In this document: piece after piece, positions 13,558 to 20,323 of the stretch
How positions within the stretch are numbered: position 1 is the stretch's first letter
Layout: the number at the start of each line of letters is the position of its first letter
Source of the DNA: Bacteroidota bacterium
Lineage (GTDB): Bacteria > Bacteroidota > Bacteroidia > B-17B0 > Aurantibacillaceae
DNA length: 64,000 nt
Assembly (NCBI GenBank): GCA_030692515.1
Contig: JAUXZS010000025.1
Coordinates: forward strand, 1 to 64,000
Reading direction: 5' to 3'
The notes under the pieces: generated by a model
Databases searched by the model: none
Seen by the model: the letters and a program-made list of their open reading frames with translations, nothing else
Told to the model about the DNA's origin: nothing
Translations under genes and position numbers: made by a program

Positions 13558-14889
13558 CTATGGTCTATACAAAACCTTATAAGTAAACTCGCTTTTTTTG
13601 GTTGGACTAACAAAGAAATTAAACTTATTAAGCGATTTTAAAATCTTAGTTACCTCTTCTTTTTGTTTTTTAGTTAAATCATAAGAATTTATGAATTCAA
13701 CTTTTTGTACTTCTTTCTTTTCATTTACAAAAAGCGTTGCATCAAATTTTTGATTTAAATTTTGCTCTATTAATTTTTCTTTAAGGTCTTTTGTAATAGC
13801 AGCTTCGCCACCAGAATAATAACAATTAATAAAATTATTCTCGCCTTTTTTATCTTCCACTTCTGCAACAGTAACTTCTTCTGTCTCTAGGGATTTGGTG
13901 GTTGATTTTGGAGAACCTGGTTTATTATCAATAGTTTCTGGTCCTGCAGCAGTTGAATTACTTTGTTTAGCGCGACTTTTAGCAGATTTTTCTTTTGCCT
14001 TGGTTTCTTCTCTGTTAGTTGCAACTGTTGCATTATTGCCAAGGGCAACTTGATTTAAATTTTTTTCAGAGTCTCCGTCTTTGTTTTTGTAATCATTTCT
14101 ATCGAGTTTAGTACCTTTTCCAGATGCTATTTCATCTGCTGGTAAAGATTCGGATTGAGAAACCTTTTGAGTTTGGACAGGTGCAGCAACAGTTGTTTGC
14201 GCTTTAAACAAATCGCTTTCCTTATCTTTTAAATTACCTTTTTTTGCAAGATCATCAGAGGATGTTGTTTGGTCGCTTTGTGTATGCGTACCCCATCCAA
14301 GTTTACCAGCTTCGTTTTTTCTTTCTGTTTTTTCTAGTTCAGATTTTCCTTCAGCACTTTGTTCATTATTAGGAGAGGCTGCTACAATCATTCTCGCGTT
14401 TGGTTTTTGCCCTTCCTTACTAACTTTTGTCTCTAGATTGCTTATTATATCATCGCTTTCTGCAGCTTTTTGTTTTTCTAAAACATCTTTTGCAGGAGCG
14501 CTATCAGTAATTATCTTTTCTAATGGCAACAATGCCCCTTCTTTTAATTCTCCACCAGTTTCGGGTAAGCTTTCTTTTTGTGTATCAGTAATTGCCAAAT
14601 TATTATTTTTGTTTGTGTCGTTTATTACAAACAAAGTACTTAAGCCTATTATTAATGCTAAGCCTGCAGCAGCCAACCAATAAATTTTTGGATTATTTTT
14701 TTCTTCTTTATTAAATAATTCTTTATTAATGCGCGCATCTAAATTGGCTTTTAAATCAAAAGCTTCTTTTTCAGATTCAAGCATATTAAAACCGACCATA
14801 GCTTCTTTTTCAAAATCATCGAGATTTTGTTCGTCTGCTTTAGCCTTATTAAAAAGATTATCTAAATTATTATTTATTGGGGTCTTCAT
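13558..14889 (-). CDS. membrane partner of the ECF sigma factor (anti-sigma-like), function unproven
   Basis: A 443-residue protein encoded directly after the sigma factor and overlapping its end by 20 bases. Residues 1-65 are an acidic cytoplasmic segment, a membrane helix lies at about 70-87 (IYWLAAAGLALIIGL), then comes a ~250-residue low-complexity linker rich in Lys, Glu, Ser, Ala and Thr, and a compact C-terminal domain of ~95 residues (from FINCYYSGGEAAI) that looks like a TonB-C-type fold. The topology and gene order fit an anti-sigma factor with a periplasmic sensor, but no standard anti-sigma domain is visible, so the role is inferred from context. Confidence 0.65.
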   Translation of the reverse strand: MKTPINNNLDNLFNKAKADEQNLDDFEKEAMVGFNMLESEKEAFDLKANLDARINKELFNKEEKNNPKIYWLAAAGLALIIGLSTLFVINDTNKNNNLAITDTQKESLPETGGELKEGALLPLEKIITDSAPAKDVLEKQKAAESDDIISNLETKVSKEGQKPNARMIVAASPNNEQSAEGKSELEKTERKNEAGKLGWGTHTQSDQTTSSDDLAKKGNLKDKESDLFKAQTTVAAPVQTQKVSQSESLPADEIASGKGTKLDRNDYKNKDGDSEKNLNQVALGNNATVATNREETKAKEKSAKSRAKQSNSTAAGPETIDNKPGSPKSTTKSLETEEVTVAEVEDKKGENNFINCYYSGGEAAITKDLKEKLIEQNLNQKFDATLFVNEKKEVQKVEFINSYDLTKKQKEEVTKILKSLNKFNFFVSPTKKSEFTYKVLYRP

Positions 14890-15457
14890 TAATTAGTATT
14901 TCCATTTTTAATTTTAAGTTTCTTTTTCCGTTTTGAATATGACTTTTAACTTCGTTTGCAGTATAACCTGTTATATCAACTATTTCAACATAAGATTTAT
15001 TTTTTAAATAAAACAAGTCAATACATTTTTTCTGGTCGATATTTAAAAGCTCCAAAGCCTGTTCCATTATTGTAATTTGTTTCTCTTTTTCATTTAGATG
15101 CTCCGGAGTCGAAAAATCCATAATTAAATGAACATTATCTTTTAATTCGAGTTCTTTTTTTAGCATACTTTGCCTTTTGCGGAGCTCCATTAAGCAAAAG
15201 TTTTTGCTATAAACGTATAACCAGCTTTTAAAAAACTCTACTTTATGCTTTTTTAAATCTTTTAATAAGCCTGTAAATATCTGAATTACTGCATCTTGCG
15301 CCTCATCTTTGTTTTTAAGGTATTTTATGCATAAACCCAATACTAAATGACCGTAGCGTTCATAAAGGATTCCAACGATGTTATTATCCTCTTTTTCTAA
15401 AAAAGTGTTAATTAAATCGGTATCAGATAAGTTGCTGTATTTCTTAGTGTCACTCAA
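14870..15457 (-). CDS. ECF-type RNA polymerase sigma factor
   Basis: A 195-residue sigma-70 family protein of the extracytoplasmic-function class. Region 2 spans about residues 20-95 (YERYGHLVLGLCIKYL, then DEAQDAVIQIF for core binding and -10 recognition). Region 4 lies at about 135-190 with a helix-turn-helix (KSYVEIVDITGYTANEVKSH). The start is TTG, giving MSDTKK. It is co-transcribed with the membrane protein at 13558 and divergent from the YfiR/SpoIIE cluster, sharing the 119-base intergenic region 15458-15576. The signal it answers to is unknown. Confidence 0.88.
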   Translation of the reverse strand: MSDTKKYSNLSDTDLINTFLEKEDNNIVGILYERYGHLVLGLCIKYLKNKDEAQDAVIQIFTGLLKDLKKHKVEFFKSWLYVYSKNFCLMELRKRQSMLKKELELKDNVHLIMDFSTPEHLNEKEKQITIMEQALELLNIDQKKCIDLFYLKNKSYVEIVDITGYTANEVKSHIQNGKRNLKLKMEILINEDPNK

Positions 15458-15500
15458 TTACGATACTATTTTATGGCTTATTTATTAAAATAACAATAAA

Positions 15501-15528
15501 TGCTTTTAAAAAGCAAACATTATATTTG
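15501..15528 (+). promoter_or_regulatory. probable promoter and palindromic operator for the YfiR cluster
   Basis: TATATTTG at 15521-15528 is an exact match to the TAnnTTTG -7 element of Bacteroidota. Immediately upstream is the palindrome TGCTTTT-A-AAAAGCA at 15501-15515, where a regulator could bind both for this cluster and for the divergent sigma gene. No good -33 TTTG is seen at the right spacing. Confidence 0.45.
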
Positions 15529-15576
15529 TAAATTAGATAAAATTTTACAAAACTGGCTAAAAGTTTTAAATATTGG

Positions 15577-16080
15577 GTGTTAATTTTCTGTGCAATTTCG
15601 TTAAGATTTCAGCAGCCATCTAATTATGATACAAATTCAAAATTTAAAGCCGTTTTCATTTATAATTTCACGCGATATTTTGAATGGTCGGAAAAGAAAA
15701 AAGCCGACAACTTTGTGATTTATGTAGTTGGTAAAAATGAAAATTTAATTACCGAATTAAAAACACTTGCCAGTAAAAAAAAGGTAGGTAATCAAGACAT
15801 TGAAATAAAAAATTCTTACGCTTTTGATCCAGGCATTTCATCCAACATTACTTATTTATTATCCGATGTTTCAAAATCTATAAAGGAGGTAACTTCTTTA
15901 AGTAAATCAAAAAGCACATTGGTAGTGTGCGAGAGTCCTAATGCTTGTAAAGCGGGGTCGAGTATAAATTTTGTGGTTGTTGAAAATAAATTAAAATTTG
16001 AGTATAGTAAAAATAATGCAGTAAAAGCTGGATTAAAAACAAACGATGATATAAAAGCTTTAGCAATTAATATTGAATAA
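15577..16080 (+). CDS. YfiR family protein (DUF4154)
   Basis: A protein of about 167 residues resembling YfiR, the periplasmic regulator that represses the membrane diguanylate cyclase YfiN in Pseudomonas. Family signs are KFKAVFIYNFTRYFEW near the mature N-terminus and VYVVGKNE; late features are the VCES/CKAGSSINFV strand. I give the GTG start at 15577, which yields a short hydrophobic leader (MLIFCAISL). The frame is open back to 15541 and a CTG at 15553 would give a longer, more basic signal peptide, so the start is uncertain. It is followed at once by a TPR protein and a HAMP-SpoIIE phosphatase; no GGDEF protein is near. Confidence 0.75.
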   Translation: MLIFCAISLRFQQPSNYDTNSKFKAVFIYNFTRYFEWSEKKKADNFVIYVVGKNENLITELKTLASKKKVGNQDIEIKNSYAFDPGISSNITYLLSDVSKSIKEVTSLSKSKSTLVVCESPNACKAGSSINFVVVENKLKFEYSKNNAVKAGLKTNDDIKALAINIE

Positions 16081-16096
16081 TATTAAAAAGAAGAAA

Positions 16097-16999
16097 ATGA
16101 ACAAATGGCGCCAAATAGTTAAAACTTTTACATACAGCATACTTATGCTGTGTTATGTAAATAGTTTTGCGCAGAATGATAAGCTTAATCGAGCTCAACA
16201 ATTGCTGCAAACAAAAAATGCCGATTTAGCAAAACTGGCTATTGATAGTGTTATTCTGCATCCAGAAACAAAAAGTGATTTTGTAAGCTGGACTACCCGC
16301 GCATATATTTATTTCGAAATTTATAAACGTAATGATAAACAAAAACTTTATTCTCCGTTAAGAGATACAATTATTTCGTCGCTTATAATTTCAAATTCTT
16401 TAAAACCCGACGAAACTTTTACAATTAATAACAAAAAATTACTTTCAAATATTGCCGCAGGATATTTTAATCTTTCTAAAGTGTTATTAATGGATTCTTT
16501 AAATTACAAAAACAGCGCGCTTGCATATAGTAAATTTAAAGAGATATTTGTTTTAACAGAACCGGGAACAAATTTTAATTCAAGAGATATTGAATATAAT
16601 TTAGCTGTTGGTAGTTTATATTCTGATGTATTTAATAAGGATAATAAGAACACGGAAGCTCAAGAAATTGCTAAACTAACCTTATTAAAGGTGCTTGATA
16701 TTCAACCAGAAAATCCATCTGCCAATATTAATTTAGGTATTATGTATTATAATCAAGCTGTTAATCTTGGTAAAGGTTTAGATTACGGCGCAGATTTTTC
16801 TCAAATAGATGTAGTGCAAGAAAACATCATCAAGTTAGCTAAGCAAGCAGAACAATTTATTATTAAAGTTTATAAGGTTGATAATAAAAATTTAAAAGCT
16901 GTTGAAGGTCTTCATAGTATTTATAAAATGCTTAACAACAAACCAAAAGAAGATGAGTTTAAGAAGAAGTGTAAAGAGTTAAATATTAAAATAGACTAA
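16097..16999 (+). CDS. exported TPR-repeat protein
   Basis: From the ATG at 16097 the product is 300 residues with a signal peptide ending near YVNSFAQ, followed by helical TPR-like repeats through the whole chain (for example NPSANINLGIMYYNQAVNLG). An in-frame TTG at 16073 overlaps the YfiR gene and would add eight mostly lysine residues before the signal peptide; ATG is preferred because AAAAAGAAGAAA precedes it. TPR domains mediate protein contacts. Its position between a YfiR-like protein and a membrane phosphatase, sharing one base with the latter's start (TAATG), suggests a periplasmic bridge in one signalling unit. Confidence 0.75.
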   Translation: MNKWRQIVKTFTYSILMLCYVNSFAQNDKLNRAQQLLQTKNADLAKLAIDSVILHPETKSDFVSWTTRAYIYFEIYKRNDKQKLYSPLRDTIISSLIISNSLKPDETFTINNKKLLSNIAAGYFNLSKVLLMDSLNYKNSALAYSKFKEIFVLTEPGTNFNSRDIEYNLAVGSLYSDVFNKDNKNTEAQEIAKLTLLKVLDIQPENPSANINLGIMYYNQAVNLGKGLDYGADFSQIDVVQENIIKLAKQAEQFIIKVYKVDNKNLKAVEGLHSIYKMLNNKPKEDEFKKKCKELNIKID

Positions 17000-18780
17000 T
17001 GGCAATTAGATTCACGATAGGAAGAAAAATTGGATTAGGATTTGGTTTATTTATTGTTTTAACAATGGTGGCATTTATCTTAACCGTTTTAACTGTAAAT
17101 GACAGTAAAAAGCAAACTGAAACAGTTGTTGGTCAGGTAGCGCCAAGCGTTGCCGAATTAAAAGAACTGAATTTATTATTACAGCGTTCACACACCAATG
17201 TTTCAAAATGGTTTTATAACAAAAGTTTTAATGATATTGAATTTAGAGATGAATTAAAAAATATTATTCGTGTAGAATATCCTGAAAAGAAAAAATTATT
17301 ACAAGCACTATCTTCAACCTGGTCGCAGGACGAAAAAACACAACTGAAAGTAATTTTTGGTAGGGTAGAAACTTTATTTAAAGTGTATCAAAACGAAATT
17401 ATTAGCCAATTAAATTCATTACAAGCATACGAAGACCCAAATATTTATATGATGGCACGTTTGCCGTATGAAGACTCCGAAGTAAATATTAAAACTATTT
17501 ATCGTAATCTTAACTCACTAATTGCATTTAAGCAAGAAGCTGCTGAGACGGTTAAAGATAACATGTTTAAATCATTTAATTTTTTAAATAGATTCGTTCA
17601 GTTATTAGGGATTACACTTGTAGTTGGTGGTATTATGATTGCATTATACACTACGAGATCGATTACAAAACCGATTAAAGTGTTAAAGAAAATGTTACTG
17701 TCGATGGGTTTAGGAATACTTCCAAAAGAGAGGATTCAACCAAGTAGTGATGAAGTTGGTGAAATGGGTATTGCGTTAAACGAATTAATTCAATCGATGC
17801 AGGAAACTACAAAGTTCGCCAAAGAAACAGGTGCCGGGAAATTTGACGCAAATTTTAAGCCTTTAAGTAAGGACGATAGTTTAGGACAAGCTTTATTGAA
17901 AATGCGTGATGATTTGGCTGAGAACGAAAGAAGTTTGGAGCGTAAAGTGAATGAGCGAACAGAAGAAGTTGTTCGTCAAAAATCTGAAATCGAAAATAAA
18001 AACGAGGAGTTACAAATATTATACAAACAAGTAACCGATAGTATTCATTACGCTAAACGAATTCAAGAAGCAATTTTACCACCGCAAAGTTTAATAAATA
18101 GAGTTTTGCCGAATTCTTTTGTATTATTCAAGCCAAAAGATATTGTTAGCGGTGATTTTTATTGGATAGAGAAAAAAAATAACACCACCTATTTTGCGGC
18201 TGTAGATTGCACTGGGCATGGAGTTCCGGGAGCTTTTATGAGTTTAGTTGGACATAATATTTTGAAAGATATTTTAAATAATACCGAGGTTATTAAGCCT
18301 TCCGAAATTTTGGATAAGTTGCGTGATGGGGTTATTAATACACTGCATATTAATAGCTCAGGAACCCAATCAAAAGATGGCATGGATATAACTTTGTGTT
18401 GTATTAATTTTGATACTCTGGAGCTTCAGTACGCCGCTGCCTATAACCCTTTGTATATAGTTAGAGGAGGAGAATTAATTATTCATCCGGCAAATAAATT
18501 TCCTATTGGCGCATTTGTTGGAGAAAAACAAAATTTTGATAACATTACTTTGCAATTAAAAAAGAACGATCAAATTTATATATACAGCGATGGTTACGCC
18601 GATCAATTTGGAGGCCCAAGAGGTAAAAAATTTATGGTTGGTAATTTTAGGAAATTGTTAACCAAGATTGCTGATAAACCTATTCACGAACAGCTTAATT
18701 TTTTGGAATCTACTTTGACCAATTGGCAAGGAGAATTAGAGCAAGTTGATGATGTACTTATTATTGGATTGAAAATTTAA
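16999..18780 (+). CDS. membrane sensor with tandem HAMP and SpoIIE/PP2C phosphatase domain
   Basis: A 593-residue transmembrane signalling protein. One helix lies at about residues 13-31 and a second near 198-217, enclosing a helical periplasmic sensor region of ~165 residues. A HAMP domain follows (TRSITKPIKVL, then SSDEVGEMGIAL), with a second HAMP-like unit (PLSKDDSLGQALLKM), a coiled coil (~315-350) and a C-terminal PP2C-like SpoIIE phosphatase. Metal-site motifs are SGDFYW, DCTGHGVPGAF and a terminal QVDDVLIIG. Such phosphatases dephosphorylate serine/threonine-phosphorylated STAS partners; no STAS protein is in the window. The gene ends a three-gene run with YfiR and TPR genes. Confidence 0.85.
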   Translation: MAIRFTIGRKIGLGFGLFIVLTMVAFILTVLTVNDSKKQTETVVGQVAPSVAELKELNLLLQRSHTNVSKWFYNKSFNDIEFRDELKNIIRVEYPEKKKLLQALSSTWSQDEKTQLKVIFGRVETLFKVYQNEIISQLNSLQAYEDPNIYMMARLPYEDSEVNIKTIYRNLNSLIAFKQEAAETVKDNMFKSFNFLNRFVQLLGITLVVGGIMIALYTTRSITKPIKVLKKMLLSMGLGILPKERIQPSSDEVGEMGIALNELIQSMQETTKFAKETGAGKFDANFKPLSKDDSLGQALLKMRDDLAENERSLERKVNERTEEVVRQKSEIENKNEELQILYKQVTDSIHYAKRIQEAILPPQSLINRVLPNSFVLFKPKDIVSGDFYWIEKKNNTTYFAAVDCTGHGVPGAFMSLVGHNILKDILNNTEVIKPSEILDKLRDGVINTLHINSSGTQSKDGMDITLCCINFDTLELQYAAAYNPLYIVRGGELIIHPANKFPIGAFVGEKQNFDNITLQLKKNDQIYIYSDGYADQFGGPRGKKFMVGNFRKLLTKIADKPIHEQLNFLESTLTNWQGELEQVDDVLIIGLKI

Positions 18781-18793
18781 TGTAAAAAATTAT

Positions 18794-20323
18794 ATGAAGA
18801 GTTTAGTGTGTTTTACAGTGTTTTATTTTTACCTAACGTTTTTAGGTTTGGCGCAAACAGAAATGAATTATTATAAATCTTATACCGCTGATATTGGAAT
18901 TTCCGCTACAAGTATTAAGACGTTAACGGCAAAAACATTTAGTTTAAGTGCTCCTATATATGATTATCAATCCGACACGACTTCTAATCAATTAATTTTT
19001 TCTACAAGAAGAAAAGATCCTTCGGGTAGGTTATATGTTAACAAAGGATTTATTGCCGGCTTAAATTGTTCGAGCGACTCAATAAATTGGTTATATGAAA
19101 GTTTACGTTTTGATTTGAGTTTAACAGATGATTTTTTGCTTTTTTCAAACGAAACTAAAACTAGCCGTTATGATAAAAAACATGGTTTTGAGGTTTACGA
19201 TTTTACAGATAGGATAGTATATACTCTGCCTAAGAATAATACAGGATTAACATATCAAAATCCTAAAGATGTTAATGAATTAAGTTGTGTTAGTTTATTA
19301 AATGGTGATGTGTTTTGGAAAGCTCTTATACCGCGGAAAGAAAATTGGATGGATGTAAAATATTTAAACGACACTACTCTTATTATAGCTGCAAATGGTG
19401 TACATGCTATTAATATAAATAGAGGTTTAATTTGGTCTCATAATTTAAATACTGCCGAGAAAAATCAAAAAACGCTAGTTTATTCGGTAATTAATAATAC
19501 CAATGTTGAGAAAATTACAGAATCCTATAAAACTACTACTGAGGATAATTTGTTAAGTCAGCTAGGGTCTAATATTCTTATAGATGGTGATGTGATTTAT
19601 TTTGCCGGAAAAGAAAAAGCAATTGCAATAAAAACAAATGGAGAGGTATTATGGGAATTAGATTTAAAGACTTTGCCAATTTCAAAAATGATTTTAACTA
19701 AAAGTGGTTCTGCGGTTACATTAATTAATTTGGGTTTGAGTTTATTTAAAGATCACTATGTGTTGTATGGTAAACCATTTGTAATGAATATCGATGCTGC
19801 TACTGGTAAAATTAATTCGCAAAGTAAATATACATCTTCTGAAAACTTAATTGATTTTTTATCTCAAAAAAATTCTTATTTATTAGCAGATAAAAAAAAT
19901 ATTATTCAAACCAATTCTAATAATGAGTCATTTGAAACTATTATTCCGCTTAACGACCATCGTTATGGCCGGTTTCTGGAATTTATTAATGGAGATGAGT
20001 ATTATGTGGAAAAAGAGGGCTATTATGTTCCATTAAATTTTATCAATGATAATGTTGTTTACTTTAAAACAGAAAACAATAAAGTTTATGGAGTTGATAA
20101 AGTAGATGTACAATACGAGTACCATTTTACTGAATTGTTTAAAAGAGATAAAGTGTTTAAAGGTAAAACAGTAATTTTTAATTATAAAAAGACATATGTT
20201 ATAAATAAAAATTTTGAGTTATTAGCTACAATTAATTTGGTTGAAAAAAGTATTCTTATGGGAAATAAGTTGTATTTTTTAGGCGGTAATATATTGAGTA
20301 TTTTAGACCTTAACGATTTATAA
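18794..20323 (+). CDS. exported PQQ-like beta-propeller protein
   Basis: A 509-residue protein with a signal peptide (residues 1-21, ending LGLAQ). The body is a repeat of beta strands with pyrrolo-quinoline-quinone-like blade signatures such as NGDVFWKALI, NRGLIWSHNL, NGEVLWELDL and DAATGKI. No haem site or obvious catalytic residues are seen. It starts 14 bases after the SpoIIE gene and may belong to the same transcript. It could be a periplasmic scaffold or sensor; the ligand is unknown. Confidence 0.7.
   Translation: MKSLVCFTVFYFYLTFLGLAQTEMNYYKSYTADIGISATSIKTLTAKTFSLSAPIYDYQSDTTSNQLIFSTRRKDPSGRLYVNKGFIAGLNCSSDSINWLYESLRFDLSLTDDFLLFSNETKTSRYDKKHGFEVYDFTDRIVYTLPKNNTGLTYQNPKDVNELSCVSLLNGDVFWKALIPRKENWMDVKYLNDTTLIIAANGVHAININRGLIWSHNLNTAEKNQKTLVYSVINNTNVEKITESYKTTTEDNLLSQLGSNILIDGDVIYFAGKEKAIAIKTNGEVLWELDLKTLPISKMILTKSGSAVTLINLGLSLFKDHYVLYGKPFVMNIDAATGKINSQSKYTSSENLIDFLSQKNSYLLADKKNIIQTNSNNESFETIIPLNDHRYGRFLEFINGDEYYVEKEGYYVPLNFINDNVVYFKTENNKVYGVDKVDVQYEYHFTELFKRDKVFKGKTVIFNYKKTYVINKNFELLATINLVEKSILMGNKLYFLGGNILSILDLNDL

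Follow-up and report, generated by a model that had tools for sequence, protein, structure and literature searches.

Described YfiR systems act via cyclic di-GMP (c-di-GMP) or, by sequence, via kinases and methyl-accepting chemotaxis proteins (MCPs). In YfiBNR and HmsCDE, a periplasmic DUF4154 protein is encoded with a HAMP protein that has two transmembrane (TM) segments, a PAS/CHASE8 receptor and a GGDEF output, and the YfiBNR operon includes the OmpA-like YfiB. The YfiR-YfiN[PAS] core was reported to be modular, with GGDEF-EAL, HPT, histidine kinase and MCP outputs (PMC3375315, accessible part); a phosphatase output is not named in that part of the paper, where the word "phosphatase" appears only in a reference title. 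Here we describe an operon in which a YfiR-like gene is followed by genes for an exported TPR protein and a membrane SpoIIE/PP2C phosphatase, together called the trio (Table 1). This tight operon occupies positions 15553-18780 of the window, i.e., the whole analysed stretch of 64,000 nucleotides (nt) of contig JAUXZS010000025.1 from a Bacteroidota bacterium (assembly GCA_030692515.1, 4.33 Mb in 68 contigs).

The trio differs from YfiBNR and HmsCDE in having a PP2C output instead of GGDEF, with no cyclase found, and a four-helix-bundle receptor instead of PAS/CHASE8. Compared at the level of the operon only, a TPR protein is encoded where YfiBNR has YfiB. The joining of YfiR to a non-cyclase output is shared with the modular YfiR-YfiN[PAS] systems. 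On the phosphatase side, SiaABCD of Pseudomonas aeruginosa also has a TM-HAMP-PP2C phosphatase, SiaA, whose phosphatase domain removes the phosphate from Thr68 of SiaC in the peptide LLYLNTSSIK; no YfiR or TPR partner is described for SiaABCD in the accessible part of PMC7647112. In RsbU/RssB-type phosphatases, PP2C is likewise driven via a helical coiled-coil linker (PMC12143880, accessible part), whereas the trio has a periplasmic YfiR input and a TPR partner. An earlier note on this DNA, written from its letters alone, regarded the arrangement as undescribed. For the phosphatase output this holds within the open-licence literature, in which we found no description of YfiR with a phosphatase output, a non-PAS receptor or a TPR partner; the modularity of YfiR beyond cyclases had already been published (PMC3375315, accessible part).

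Table 1. Features of the trio locus and its neighbours, with positions in the window
Feature	Positions	Strand	Basis
YfiR/HmsC-like periplasmic protein (DUF4154)	15553..16080	+	Pfam PF13689 2.4e-23, open frame; CTG start inferred
Exported TPR-type helical repeat protein	16097..16999	+	Signal-like N-terminus, 12-helix model, TPR_11 in homologues
Membrane phosphatase: TM, periplasmic four-helix bundle, TM, HAMP, coiled coil, SpoIIE/PP2C	16999..18780	+	Pfam SpoIIE 2.4e-17, structure model, fold match to SiaA-PP2C
HAMP domain of the phosphatase, residues 218-268	17650..17802	+	Pfam
SpoIIE/PP2C catalytic domain, residues 395-592 as matched	18181..18774	+	Pfam; invariant Asp residues
Operon's putative -7 promoter element of the Bacteroidota type, TATATTTG	15521..15528	+	Invariant in 10/10 aligned sequences
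Optional fourth gene, exported PQQ/BamB-like propeller	18794..20323	+	PF13360 4.1e-4, under cut-off; partly conserved neighbour
Divergent ECF sigma factor gene, a neighbour and not a part	14870..15457	-	TIGR02937 6.9e-22
Long membrane protein, partner of the ECF sigma factor gene and, judged by its position, anti-sigma-like	13558..14889	-	No Pfam family above cut-off

The three proteins

The joint encoding of a YfiR-like protein, an exported TPR protein and a membrane HAMP-SpoIIE protein in overlapping or near-overlapping frames, as read in the earlier note, was borne out by Pfam, by structure modelling and by the tight operon, in which base 16999 is common to the TPR stop codon and the phosphatase ATG. 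The YfiR-like protein passes the DUF4154 cut-off (83.2 bits, cut-off 24.9) and is the sole DUF4154 protein of its genome in a genome-wide profile search, while it misses the NCBIfam cut-offs of sequest_YfiR (16.3 of 85 bits) and of the TOL_0243 family (86.9 of 125 bits). Its F141 aligns to Phe162 of YfiR and is conserved in at least 90% of 20 homologues, so that this surface residue is shared with YfiBNR/HmsCDE. Phe162 was described as the central residue of a candidate YfiN-binding surface (PMC3375315, accessible part).

The TPR protein has a signal-like N-terminus ending in SFAQ, as read from the translation, and its structure model is a TPR-type array of 12 helices with a predicted local distance difference test score (pLDDT) of 92.7. 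TPR_11 matches 40 of the 64 homologues (E ≤ 0.01), the match of the window protein itself falling under the curated Pfam cut-off. In the PDB the model matched TPR proteins for the most part; TM-scores from the fold search were low.

Hydrophobic spans of the phosphatase lie near residues 17-35 and 199-217. In the model, helices at 7-46, 49-73, 81-107, 110-135 and 147-237 make up a helical bundle in the periplasm, followed by a long helix and the PP2C domain; with a mean pLDDT of 81.8 and a predicted template modelling score (pTM) of 0.45, the packing of the domains is uncertain. The window protein falls narrowly under the cut-offs of 4HB_MCP_1 (26.7 bits, cut-off 27) and HAMP (24.3 bits, cut-off 25), and Pfam finds SpoIIE in 62, HAMP in 61 and 4HB_MCP_1 in 32 of the 62 homologues. 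Two HAMP units had been proposed for this protein, of which one is detectable; the second was rejected, with a Pfam match in none of four fragments of that region and HAMP_2 in only 2 of the 62 homologues.

The catalytic domain appears intact, as Asp386, Asp403, Asp531 and Asp585, which we take to be metal ligands, are among the columns invariant in all 62 homologues. Comparison with solved structures gave E = 8.7e-58 for SiaA (6K4E) and 4.3e-6 for SpoIIE. In the fold search, 6K4E was again the closest structure (VIA Z 30.9, next 22.7; 30% identity). The whole protein scored 216.4 bits with NF038263, the SiaA equivalog, without reaching the cut-off of 700, and ranks second of the 46 matches in its genome. 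For the four-helix bundle, the PDB match list was filled by the PP2C domain, so that the bundle's own relatives were barely sampled.

Conservation, fusions and domain exchange

Conservation of the gene order, set as a test beforehand, was followed in 60 related genomes, the own genome included, with completeness of 60-100% and several incomplete drafts among them. One locus per genome among their YfiR matches gave 40 best-match loci (L032-L071), to which 20 regions chosen for paralogues and fusions (L072-L091) were added. In 38 of the 40 best-match loci (33 of the same genus and 5 of other families), the genes for YfiR, TPR and phosphatase follow one another in this order on the same strand. 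L088 is the sole trio among the further regions, and counting it the trio is present in 39 of 41 loci; by genome, with the own genome excluded, it occurs in 33 of 36 same-genus genomes and in 6 of 23 other-class genomes. A second set comprised 80 named loci, those among 224 with the highest similarity to the YfiRs of trios; it overlaps with the relatives' set and is biased to trios because of the way it was picked. In these, TPR stands next to YfiR in all 80 and the phosphatase or its start follows in 75, of which L139, L140, L158 and L165 run off the contig with no more than the sensor part visible and L160 and L176 have the phosphatase frame split in two; in the remaining 5, the sequence ends at most 139 bases past TPR. 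The median gaps are 10-10.5 nt between YfiR and TPR and 2-9 nt between TPR and PP2C.

The three genes could be co-transcribed neighbours without a common pathway, and it is true that several flanking genes are likewise conserved within the genus. Nevertheless, the flanks are variable: some loci no longer have the ECF, PQQ-like or ABC genes, yet the trio persists, also in other families. Natural fusions of YfiR with PP2C speak against mere neighbourhood as well, and we regard it as very improbable. The trio is very probably a real, conserved signalling unit.

All 14 YfiR frames longer than 500 residues among the 60 relatives, from 11 genomes, are YfiR-TM-PP2C fusions, and three of them (L079, L085, L089) carry two tandem YfiR domains ahead of the membrane span. 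TPR-TM-PP2C proteins exist as well, in L084 (TPR and SpoIIE by Pfam) and L068 (read by eye). Domains like both small operon proteins thus serve elsewhere as the N-terminal part of a phosphatase. Mainly because of the natural YfiR fusions, it is likely that YfiR controls the phosphatase of the trio. A GGDEF cyclase was found neither in the own genome nor in any other of the 60 genomes (E ≤ 0.001; some are incomplete drafts), the same search being positive in 8 of 14 control genomes; pairing of YfiR with a GGDEF protein elsewhere, an alternative raised in the earlier note, was accordingly seen in none of the 60. Taken together, operon conservation, fusions and the lack of a detectable GGDEF gene support the coupling of a YfiR-type input to PP2C as its output, as the note had suggested.

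Sequence comparison further indicates that the catalytic domain has been exchanged while the input unit stayed constant, the junction lying in the coiled coil, because identity in L138 switches partner at about residue 330. Up to this point L138 shares 73-97% identity with L147 and after it 27-60%; past the same point L138 is 80-100% identical to L124, and these late stretches of the two proteins share 60-90% identity with the YfiR-PP2C fusion L072 (all in 30-residue windows). In L118, L124 and L138 the sensor and HAMP are kept and the catalytic half has given way, from about residue 330 on, to the L072-like type. Chimeric assembly may account for the swap in a single metagenome-assembled genome, but three loci carry the swapped type. 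It has been proposed that phosphatases, kinases and cyclases exchange their sensors via coiled-coil linkers, and the catalytic swap fits this idea of exchangeable linkers (PMC12143880, accessible part).

The catalytic domain of L061 is also divergent, its best match (51%) being a TPR-TM-PP2C protein. Another arrangement was observed in L073, L075 and L084, where genes for a TonB-receptor-like protein and YfiR are divergent from a separate sensor-type SpoIIE phosphatase; the TonB-receptor Plug domain was confirmed by Pfam in L075 only, and similar spacing occurs in L076, L077, L080 and L082.

The phosphatase and its candidate target

In the proposed mechanism, YfiR and the TPR protein would jointly set the state of the four-helix-bundle receptor in the periplasm, and HAMP and the coiled coil would relay this state across the membrane to the SiaA-like PP2C phosphatase. 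The phosphatase would control the removal of phosphate from the conserved threonine of a switch protein of the SiaC family (STAS-like), opposed by a SiaB-type kinase, and the end output would be other than c-di-GMP, because no cyclase was found. What we presume here is the contact that YfiR and TPR make with the receptor, the sign of the control, the signal and SiaC as substrate. As a whole, the reading of the three genes as one transmembrane signalling unit, in which YfiR and TPR control a SiaA-like phosphatase whose substrate is a SiaC-type protein, is one that we moderately favour.

The own genome contains 45 SpoIIE matches, 8 SiaC proteins and 7 DUF6272 (SiaB-family) domains in 5 frames, none of the SiaC and SiaB genes at the trio locus. 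Thus, the SiaB and SiaC families are shared with SiaABCD, while their genes are not beside the trio and a GGDEF protein corresponding to SiaD was not found in the own genome. Four of the eight siaC genes directly adjoin a PP2C gene (L191, L192, L195 and, convergently, L196), and three adjoin a DUF6272 gene (L189, L191, L196). The threonine of LLYLNTSSIK is matched in 7 of the 8 SiaC proteins, as read from the sequences. SiaC was found in 50 of the 60 genomes. Within the genus it is present in 32 of the 33 trio genomes, the exception (G005) being 73% complete; outside the genus, it occurs in 6 of 6 trio genomes versus 8 of 17 others (one-sided Fisher 0.03, by hand). In L182, siaC starts 10 nt after a YfiR-PP2C fusion; no siaC was present in the examined flanks of the other 13 fusions, and no further relatives of this case were found, the family of G043 consisting of that genome only. 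On these grounds the chance that SiaC is the substrate appears about even. Two further observations concern the own genome, namely a run of six SpoIIE phosphatases within C58:82816-92296 and a siaC without phosphatase neighbour (L193:5986-6357), which lies between genes for long, apparently exported proteins.

SpoIIE-type phosphatases classically act on STAS anti-anti-sigma factors. The trio might thus act on an RsbV-like protein of this kind with an RsbW-like kinase, the output being release of a sigma factor. The own genome has 11 HATPase_c_2 matches, 5 of them over the cut-off (the profile matches 12 of 14 control genomes), including one strong stand-alone protein of 140 residues (1.8e-26), and an ECF sigma gene is divergent from the trio in most loci. 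However, ECF factors are not usually under the control of STAS partners, the catalytic domain is far nearer to SiaA than to SpoIIE or RsbU, and SiaC genes often adjoin phosphatase genes in this genome. We consider an RsbV-like target unlikely.

A variant of the SiaC-type reading concerns the periplasmic side. By analogy with YfiBNR (accessible parts of PMC2837407 and PMC4655355), YfiR could be a free repressor that holds the phosphatase off, the TPR protein replacing YfiB and removing YfiR under envelope stress. The conserved Phe of the binding surface would agree with this, as would the TPR gene that accompanies YfiR in 40 of 41 relatives' loci and in 80 of 80 named loci. On the other hand, the TPR protein is not OmpA-like, the receptor is not PAS, and YfiR is tethered in the 14 fusions and therefore cannot be carried off there. 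The variant is conceivable, but we are inclined to doubt it.

Several observations weigh against a SiaC-linked unit gated by YfiR and TPR. Two best-match loci lack the trio: L070 has YfiR and TPR with no adjoining phosphatase, and L071 has no TPR. C124 of the window YfiR aligns to Cys145 but N131 to Cys152, so that the second cysteine of the Cys145-Cys152 disulphide is absent (numbering from the accessible part of PMC4655355). CHASE8 was found in none of the 62 phosphatase homologues (E ≤ 0.01), leaving a receptor without the PAS/CHASE8 domain to which YfiR attaches in YfiN. Correlation of tree distances with YfiR and TPR was rejected as proof of contact: the sensor seemed to track them better than the catalytic part did, but the difference is gone without L118, L124 and L138, and with these three swapped loci removed the correlations do not favour the periplasmic part. 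The SiaA family model is unspecific, with matches in 12 of 14 control genomes, none over the cut-off. Neither siaC nor siaB stands directly beside a trio in the examined flanks; either gene lies within about 3.5-4.2 kb of a trio in L067 and L169 only, which is close to chance by a hand estimate. With 45 phosphatases in one genome, the pairing of phosphatase and SiaC is tentative, and the co-occurrence of trio and SiaC is confounded by lineage.

A sample drawn evenly from the phylum had YfiR in 24 of 296 genomes, with 30 matches, of which 28 besides that of the window were examined with their flanks by eye (the match in G067 was left out). Twelve adjoin a kinase gene, a further 5 are fused to a kinase, only L236 is a trio and 10 are none of these. 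YfiR thus stands mostly with histidine kinases across the phylum and the trio is a minority arrangement, which likewise weighs against such a unit.

The kinase fusions in this sample (L233, by Pfam, and L239, L240, L242 and L244) are the five long YfiR frames. YfiR adjoins CHASE8-HAMP histidine kinases in L231, L237, L245 and L249, and in L231 Pfam also identifies a TonB receptor gene upstream; CHASE8 is thus kept in these four matching neighbour kinases, as in the modular YfiR-YfiN[PAS] systems, and absent from the trio receptor. In L228:5472-7469, YfiR lies beside a sensor related to the trio receptor, with GAF and PAS domains and no output domain seen in the frame.

Since YfiR is conserved without a detectable cyclase and is coupled to a phosphatase, it looks like a general periplasmic adaptor. 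The locus might represent a c-di-GMP-free Bacteroidota branch in which a YfiBNR-type front end is combined with a SiaA-SiaB-SiaC switch, a TPR co-factor and a non-PAS YfiR receptor, with YfiR-phosphatase fusions and catalytic swaps under a constant input; we put the case for and against such a branch in balance. The trio offers a way into the study of the numerous orphan SpoIIE phosphatases in Bacteroidota, with SiaC as a candidate substrate family.

Gene start, upstream DNA and neighbouring genes

An in-frame CTG at 15553 (15553-15555) is shared by all 10 aligned sequences, unlike the GTG at 15577. Because of this invariance, the CTG is probably the start of YfiR. The upstream element TATATTTG is conserved in the same number of aligned sequences, and we take it to follow TAnnTTTG, presumably the consensus of the Bacteroidota-type -7 element. 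The palindrome at 15501-15515 to which the earlier note had pointed exists, with 7-bp arms, but its exact left arm is retained in none of nine aligned relatives, and it was rejected as an operator.

The divergent genes for an ECF (extracytoplasmic function) sigma factor and its long membrane partner are present as the note had described, yet the sigma factor was rejected as a component of the system, being divergent and found in only part of the loci (27 of 39 relatives' and 50 of 76 named scorable loci). On the other flank, a PQQ-like gene adjoins the phosphatase in 21 of 37 relatives' and 20 of 66 named scorable loci.

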